Shown piece after piece: positions 54,827 through 56,547 of a DNA stretch of 64,000 nt. The position numbers and the translations under genes are program-made. Position 1 is the stretch's first letter, and each line of letters begins with the position of its first letter. Source of the DNA: Gammaproteobacteria bacterium (GTDB lineage Bacteria; Pseudomonadota; Gammaproteobacteria; Steroidobacterales; Woeseiaceae); contig JAOTWB010000004.1 in the NCBI GenBank assembly GCA_029863125.1, positions 1 through 64,000 of the forward strand. Direction: 5' to 3'. The notes below the pieces were generated by a model. That model did no database searches, was not told where the DNA came from, and saw only the letters and a program-made list of their open reading frames with translations.

Positions 54827-55030
54827 TCAGCTCATGCCGTACTTGCGGCGGAATTTGTCTACGCGTCCGCCCGAATCGACGATCTTTTGCTTGCCCGTGT
54901 AGAACGGGTGGCAGGAGGAGCACACCTCGATGAGGAGATCTTCGCCGAGCGTCGAACGCGTCGTGAATTCGTTGCCGCAACTACAGGTGACCTTGATGGC
55001 GGTGTAATTAGGGTGAATATCGGCTTTCAT
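54827..55030 (-). CDS. rpmE: 50S ribosomal protein L31, zinc-binding form
   Basis: 67 aa from the ATG at 55030; the track ORF adds 50 non-native residues. [22 protein letters not shown] and [29 protein letters not shown] give the four Cys of the zinc-containing L31 type. The promoter should lie in the DnaA-box region upstream, but no clear -35/-10 pair was found. Confidence 0.96.
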
Positions 55031-55110
55031 TGTGGCTCTCCCGAGCGCGCTGCGTCGCAAAAGGCCGCGTAGGATATAGCGAAGCGCCCGCTCCCGCAAG
55101 CCCCCTGCGA

Positions 55111-55324
55111 TTATCCACAGAAGCTGTGGATAAGTATGTGGATTAAAATTGAGTGAATGACCTAAGGTGCGGATTTGCAAGCAAGCTTGTCAATTTGACT
55201 ATTTTATGTCCATTTTATTTTTGGGTTAACAAACATGGACTTATCGACGCTTCACGACCCACAAAGTGAATTCGAACGCCTCTTGTACTGATAATCAAAG
55301 GCCCGCCGGATTCCTTGTGCATAA
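55111..55324. promoter_or_regulatory. DnaA-box cluster with AT-rich tract (rpmE-hemW spacer)
   Basis: Two perfect DnaA boxes face each other, TTATCCACA (55111-55119) and TGTGGATAA (55125-55133), 5 nt apart. A one-mismatch box TGTGGATTA follows (55137-55145), and TGTGCATAA, the reverse complement of TTATGCACA, is at 55316-55324. Between them lies an AT-rich tract (about 55190-55235, ATTTTATGTCCATTTTATTT). The 323-bp spacer has no gene. Its role (origin, DnaA titration or DnaA-controlled promoter) is open. Confidence 0.6.
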
Positions 55325-55353: not shown

Positions 55354-56547
55354 TCACCGGGAAAGGCCTGCGCCCCCACCGTTCCGCCGGCTGCGGGCCC
55401 TCGCCGGCAGGAATTCGGCCTGCAGATCGTTGAGGAAGCGTCTGCCGAGCGGTGTTGCCTGCCAGCGCGATTCGTCGACGCGCTCAACCAGCCCTTTTTC
55501 ACGGACCCCGCGCATGATCGTCTGCAGCTCCGGGCCACTCAGCCCCGTTCGTTCACAGAAAACCAGCTCGCCGAACCCGTCGTTCAATCGCAGCGCATTC
55601 AGCATGAATTCGAAGACCAGATCCGGCGGCGCAACCCGAATCGCTGCGGCACCCTGCCTCCCGGCTTCGATGGCCGTCATGTACTGCAGCGGGTTGGCGG
55701 GCTTTTGGTACCGGAATACGCCGCGGGTGTCACTGATCTTGCCGTGGGCCCCGGCGCCCGCTGCCAGGTAATCGCCGAACAGCCAGTAGTTCAGGTTGTG
55801 TTCGCACACCCGGCCGTCGCGGGCAAACGCAGAGACTTCGTACTGGCGGTAGCCGCTCTTGGCCAGCAGCGCCTGCCCACGGTCCTGAATCGCGTGAAGA
55901 GTCTCCTCCTCCGGCAGGTCTTGCGGGGGCCGCGCGAAAAAAATCGTATTGGGTTCAAGCGTGAGTTGGTACCAGGAAATGTGCGTCGGTGCGAGGCTGA
56001 TAGCGCATTCGAGATCCTCGAGTGCCGCCTCCACTCCCTGGCCCGGCAGGCCGTGCATCAGGTCGATATTGATGTTGTCGATGCCGGCTGCCCGCGCATC
56101 GTCAACGGCCCGCACAATATCCTCGCTGCTGTGGATTCGTCCGATCTTTTTCAGCAGTTCGTCGTCAAAGCTCTGCCCCCCGAAGGACAGGCGATTGACT
56201 CCCGCATCGCGATAACCGGCCGGCTGGCCGCACTCGACCGTACCCGGGTTTGCTTCCATCGTGATTTCGGCGCCATCGGCAAGATCGAAGCAGGCCCGCA
56301 CACCGTCCAGCAGCCGTTCGATTTCCCCAGGCGAAAACAGGCTCGGCGTGCCGCCACCGAGAAAAACACTTTGCAGCCGTCTGCCCGCGGCGCGCAGCGC
56401 CTCACCCTCGAGATCGACGAGCAGCGCATCGAGATATCTTTCGCGCGGCGCGCCCTCTCCCGCCGTGTGCGAATTGAAGTCGCAGTAAGGACATTTTCGG
56501 ACGCACCAGGGAAGGTGCACGTAAAGCGAGAGCGGCGGGGCAATCAC
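55354..56547 (-). CDS. hemW: Radical SAM heme chaperone HemW
   Basis: 397 aa from a GTG overlapping the rdgB stop (GTGA). SAM-cluster motif CVRKCPYCDFNSH (Cx3Cx2C), then LGGGTPSLFSP, EANPGTVE and GVNRLSFGGQSFDDELL. HemW proteins lack coproporphyrinogen oxidase activity despite the similarity and bind heme. It follows rdgB and rph in one leftward unit. Confidence 0.93.
   Translation of the reverse strand: MIAPPLSLYVHLPWCVRKCPYCDFNSHTAGEGAPRERYLDALLVDLEGEALRAAGRRLQSVFLGGGTPSLFSPGEIERLLDGVRACFDLADGAEITMEANPGTVECGQPAGYRDAGVNRLSFGGQSFDDELLKKIGRIHSSEDIVRAVDDARAAGIDNINIDLMHGLPGQGVEAALEDLECAISLAPTHISWYQLTLEPNTIFFARPPQDLPEEETLHAIQDRGQALLAKSGYRQYEVSAFARDGRVCEHNLNYWLFGDYLAAGAGAHGKISDTRGVFRYQKPANPLQYMTAIEAGRQGAAAIRVAPPDLVFEFMLNALRLNDGFGELVFCERTGLSGPELQTIMRGVREKGLVERVDESRWQATPLGRRFLNDLQAEFLPARARSRRNGGGAGLSR

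Follow-up and report, generated by a model that had tools for sequence, protein, structure and literature searches.

The locus lies in a window of 64 kb, the whole stretch of DNA that was analysed, from a fragmentary Woeseiaceae MAG (73 contigs, 74% complete, 2.49 Mb). Woeseiaceae are abundant in marine sediments. Four DnaA boxes occupy the space between rpmE and hemW, two genes named from sequence, and gltA lies beyond rpmE. The features of the locus, with distances counted from box I, are as follows:

54827-55030, minus strand: rpmE (ribosomal protein L31), an ORF and the left neighbour
55063-55101, minus strand: conserved putative rpmE promoter, with a -35 element CTTG(C) as the complement of 55097-55101 and TAT-CTACGCG as the complement of 55066-55076
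55111-55119, plus strand: DnaA box I, TTATCCACA, placed and oriented like box I of the E. coli DARS cores
55125-55133, minus strand: DnaA box II, TTATCCACA on its own strand and TGTGGATAA as read forward, facing box I across a 5 bp gap
55137-55145, minus strand: DnaA box III, TAATCCACA on its own strand and TGTGGATTA as read forward, near-perfect, 3 bp past box II and in the same orientation
55186-55245, no strand: AT-rich segment (70-75% AT), overlying the Fis and IHF positions
55197-55211, no strand: Fis-consensus site GACTATTTTATGTCC, an exact match to GNNYANNNNNTRNNC, at +86
55231-55243, plus strand: position of the IHF consensus WATCAANNNNTTR, at +120; the window copy, AAACATGGACTTA, has 2 mismatches
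55316-55324, minus strand: DnaA box IV, TTATGCACA, at +205 and 170 bp beyond box III
55354-56547, minus strand: hemW (radical-SAM heme chaperone-like), an ORF and the right neighbour

Direct reading of the window confirmed what an earlier note on this DNA had described: two perfect, inverted boxes 5 nt apart, a near-perfect third, a fourth 170 bp off, an AT-rich stretch between them, and leftward genes on both sides. The stretch reaches 70-75% AT, and the leftward genes are rpmE, gltA, and hemW. Box matches with at most one mismatch numbered 10 in the window against 5.4 expected, a count that was reached in 2 of 100 shuffles. Across the host assembly, TTATCCACA was not enriched, with 7 exact matches in 2.49 Mb compared with about 9 expected by composition, and the inverted pair occurred a single time in the host genome. 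The improbable feature is the arrangement, namely the inverted pair, and not the presence of single boxes.

To our knowledge, nearly everything established about DARS function comes from E. coli, whose two copies differ. We applied one and the same box scan to E. coli MG1655 and to the window. The DARS1 core reads TTATCCACT/5/TTATCCACA/3/TAATACACA, the DARS2 core TTATTCACC/5/CTATCCACA/3/TTCTTCACA, and the window core TTATCCACA/5/TTATCCACA/3/TAATCCACA, identical to both in order, orientation, and spacing. All three cores have the form I(+), 5 bp, II(-), 3 bp, III(-), and it is through this three-box arrangement of orientation and spacing that a DARS core is defined (PMC5742627, PMC8682772), with the opposing pair and its head-to-head DnaA contact as the defining element (PMC8682772). 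Identical boxes are listed for DARS1 and DARS2 in a ChIP-seq table (PMC11317965). Because the core geometry matches DARS1 and DARS2 and is missing from datA, the site qualifies as a DARS on the sequence feature that defines the class, and it would be expected to reactivate DnaA.

The earlier note had suggested a datA/DARS-like site, and only the second half of that suggestion held, given that box order and spacing are those of DARS1 and DARS2 and that the geometry of datA differs. A datA-like site would be an IHF-looped cluster that promotes DnaA ATP hydrolysis after initiation, or one that simply titrates DnaA. E. coli datA does share with the Woeseiaceae site an IHF position flanked by groups of DnaA boxes and an origin-side location; the conserved spacing would also suit such a role, as would the early duplication of near-oriC clusters, which fits inactivation or titration (PMC12371093). 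However, datA has no I/5/II/3/III core and its strong boxes stand in other orientations and spacings, and the head-to-head opposing pair is a hallmark of DARS cores (PMC8682772). Identity with datA was ruled out on this box geometry, and we consider a datA-like site unlikely.

Outside the core, DARS1 (bioD-uvrB) has the same box II as the window and a box III that differs by one letter (TAATACACA against TAATCCACA). It carries a weak IHF-like match (2 mismatches) at +121 and a weak box, TTTTTAACA, at +203, positions that correspond to the IHF site and box IV of the Woeseiaceae element, respectively. Unlike the window, DARS1 lacks a Fis match within this layout, and its chromosomal place is different. 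The published DARS1 is 101 bp long and active in vitro without added factors (PMC5742627). DARS2 (rppH-mutH) shares with the window both the core geometry and the presence, on the side of box III, of consensus sites for IHF and Fis, but the order differs, being core-IHF-Fis in DARS2 and core-Fis-IHF-box IV in Woeseiaceae. The IHF-like match of DARS2 lies at +109, eleven bp off the +120 position of Woeseiaceae, and the full box that follows, at +211, is oriented opposite to the Woeseiaceae box IV. Gene context and location differ as well. The Woeseiaceae element is origin-proximal, 40-193 kb from dnaA in the nine relatives that have both on one contig, whereas the E. coli DARS sites are located between oriC and terC (PMC5742627). 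This mid-location characterizes the copies of E. coli and lies outside the core definition.

Within the family, the inverted pair was present once or twice per genome in 96 of 107 genomes. The gap was always 5 nt among the matches listed, in a search that allowed 2-12 nt, and a reversed-pattern control of the pair had no match in the 107 genomes. A core with relaxed letters was recovered in 4 of the 11 pair-negative genomes, and the remaining seven are mostly incomplete assemblies. The intergenic place between rpmE and hemW is kept in relatives wherever both flanks are readable; rpmE and gltA adjoin the element in 45 of 45 family loci checked and hemW in 44, the exception being a locus (L088) whose sequence ends before hemW. 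We then aligned 48 family loci, with some genomes entering twice, once from each of two collections. Box IV falls at +203 to +207 wherever the sequence extends far enough, each of the six letters that define the Fis consensus GNNYANNNNNTRNNC is conserved in 45-48 of the 48, and the IHF consensus WATCAANNNNTTR is found with at most one mismatch at +120/121 in 43. Of 400 trials with permuted consensuses, none reached the IHF score; for Fis, 1 of 400 did. At the family level, both consensus sites stand at a fixed distance from the core, and the host itself has a degenerate IHF copy. Conservation among the boxes is weakest at box III, where up to two mismatches occur in the family. We read the 70-75% AT segment as the Fis/IHF region and not as a DUE. 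Column counts of the same alignment also indicate conserved blocks upstream of rpmE, which we assign to its putative promoter. The motif AAATTGA, directly after box III (55146-55152 in the window), is conserved in the family, each letter being kept in 34-46 of the 48 loci.

A gene for Fis is present in all eight genomes checked (the host and seven relatives), and one for IHF-alpha in all seven relatives checked. No IHF-alpha above the cut-off was found in the host MAG, which we attribute to an assembly that is 74% complete. Several small genomes of genus g10 (L092, L093, L094, L098) encode a cysteine-less L31, 38-46% identical to that of the window, and its rpmE adjoins an unchanged element; sister genomes keep the zinc-type L31. 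In one genome, G044, the site occurs twice, on separate contigs (L303, L307) and each time with rpmE and gltA adjoining; the two copies probably come from two mixed strains (3% contamination).

The core is not confined to this family. With at most 2 mismatches allowed, it occurs in 268 of 369 gammaproteobacterial genomes, and the core together with box IV at +200 to +206 is matched exactly in 113 of 369; reversed-pattern controls gave 0 in both searches. In 30 class loci picked without regard to box IV, an exact same-strand box IV at +200 to +206 accompanied the core in 17. Thirty-one distinct copies of core and box IV measure 210-216 bp; an IHF match falls at +117 to +124 in 17 of these, compared with one or two at any other position. 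Many of the class copies, though not every one, are no more than about 250 kb away from dnaA. Their gene context varies: priA adjoins 10 of the 30 class loci and rpmE-hemW 3, and aroE, lptG, xseA, and a PhoQ-like kinase gene are found at others.

This variety bears on the idea, raised in the earlier note, that DnaA controls rpmE at this site, in which case transcription control by DnaA, with Fis and IHF, would be its main role. Box I does start about 10 bp upstream of the conserved putative -35 of rpmE, and DnaA is known as a transcription factor at other promoters. However, the core, the IHF position, and the box IV spacing recur beside priA, aroE, lptG, and the PhoQ-like kinase gene, and several small g10 genomes have another rpmE type and retain the element. 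Since the 213-bp architecture adjoins other genes in other families, control of rpmE is very unlikely to be the main role; it is possible as a side effect. At ten loci (L242, L247, L248, L261, L262, L265-L269), the core lies directly upstream of priA, which encodes the replication-restart helicase. E. coli has priA and rpmE side by side in divergent orientation, and no DARS-type copy was found in the gap between them.

The earlier note had likened the site to a replication origin, while pointing out that dnaA and dnaN are absent from the window. They are indeed absent, but this is uninformative, because neither was found in a search of the whole incomplete host assembly. Four DnaA boxes, an AT-rich stretch, an IHF position, family conservation, and a distance of less than 200 kb from dnaA could all suit a chromosomal origin, or a second one, apart from dnaA. 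Against this, the dnaA-dnaN spacer of 19 relatives contains two to four DnaA boxes and a 40-mer of 80-95% AT, together with an exact IHF site in several of them. In G105, the only closed genome of the family, the spacer runs in the order AT-rich element, box, IHF site, further boxes. This oriC resembles the site in its DnaA boxes and IHF consensus, and differs from it in the AT content of its AT-rich segment (80-95% against 70-75%), in box layout, and in its place at dnaA.

Strand composition was also used to locate the origin. An earlier regression, which took gene direction as a covariate, gave a weak signal in G025, G002, and G093, and its result for G105 agreed with neither dnaA nor the site; for this reason we adopted a model of codon usage by strand, trained on the two arms of G105 with gene direction removed. 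This model placed the change point at 2.688 Mb in G011 (dnaA at 2.679 and the site at 2.602), at 85.5 kb in G002 (dnaA at 78.7, site at 13.7), and at 534 kb in G093 (dnaA at 553.5, site at 474), that is, nearer to dnaA in all three genomes. G025 was uninformative. In G105, the best change point lies about 70 kb beyond dnaA and farther still from the site, so that it fits neither place. Plain GC skew of the window and of G105 did not single out a position, the minimum being flat over about 120 kb. The broad minimum and the misfit of the change point in G105 count for an origin at the site; the offset and the flat zone may reflect recent rearrangement near the origin. Moreover, in the host as in G011, G002, and G093, the genes that flank the site on either side show for the most part the strand bias of one and the same arm, which argues against an origin between them. 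On the dnaA-dnaN architecture and the strand-bias change points, the site was ruled out as a replication origin. The canonical oriC of the relatives lies in the dnaA-dnaN spacer, and we see next to no chance that the site is a chromosomal origin, or a second one, apart from dnaA.

Judged by its box arrangement and conserved layout, the locus is most likely a DARS-type DnaA-reactivating element. This assignment draws on box geometry, the Fis and IHF positions, box IV spacing, genomic place, the fis and IHF-alpha genes, and the separate oriC, and from these data we infer DnaA binding, nucleotide exchange, a loop, and an effect on initiation timing at the site. In the mechanism we propose, DnaA-ADP would occupy the core as it does in the E. 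coli DARS cores, head to head on boxes I and II and in tandem on box III. A bend by IHF (about +126) and Fis (about +93) would then fold the segment of about 213 bp and bring DnaA on box IV to the core complex; centred at about +126, IHF would stand some 91 bp from the core end and 77 bp short of box IV, distances that suit a hairpin bend. ADP would be released, and apo-DnaA would leave, take up ATP, and start the next round at oriC, which in relatives lies 40-190 kb off, between dnaA and dnaN. Several observations speak against a DARS: the host IHF copy has two mismatches, the order of Fis and IHF is unlike that of E. coli DARS2, box III has up to two mismatches in the family, and an IHF position between boxes resembles datA, which acts oppositely. 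The origin-proximal place also counts against it, in that moving DARS2 near oriC in E. coli moderately disturbed initiation timing (PMC5742627).

DARS-like sequences have been reported as conserved in many proteobacteria (PMC10380432), so the Woeseiaceae DARS is a new member of a known group; DARS2 spacing is conserved near E. coli (PMC5742627). In the literature searched, we found nothing on replication control in Woeseiaceae, nor the Fis-IHF-box IV extension, its class-wide recurrence, or the frequent origin-proximal place. The new part is the fixed extended layout. We tentatively propose that an IHF/Fis-gated loop of about 213 bp (core, Fis at about +86, IHF at about +120, box IV at about +203) might be the common gammaproteobacterial form of DARS, often situated no farther than about 250 kb from the origin and present as one or two copies, and that E. 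coli DARS1 and DARS2 could be reduced or rearranged descendants of it. An architecture that recurs in 113 of 369 genomes, with constant distances in Woeseiaceae, would point to a general DARS blueprint, one that predicts which parts are required for DnaA recharging. It also makes the question of origin distance testable, as many copies lie near the origin, unlike those of E. coli. Finally, an exact DARS core was found on 13 IMG/VR viral contigs (L308-L320), which may be host fragments or may belong to phages that bind DnaA.
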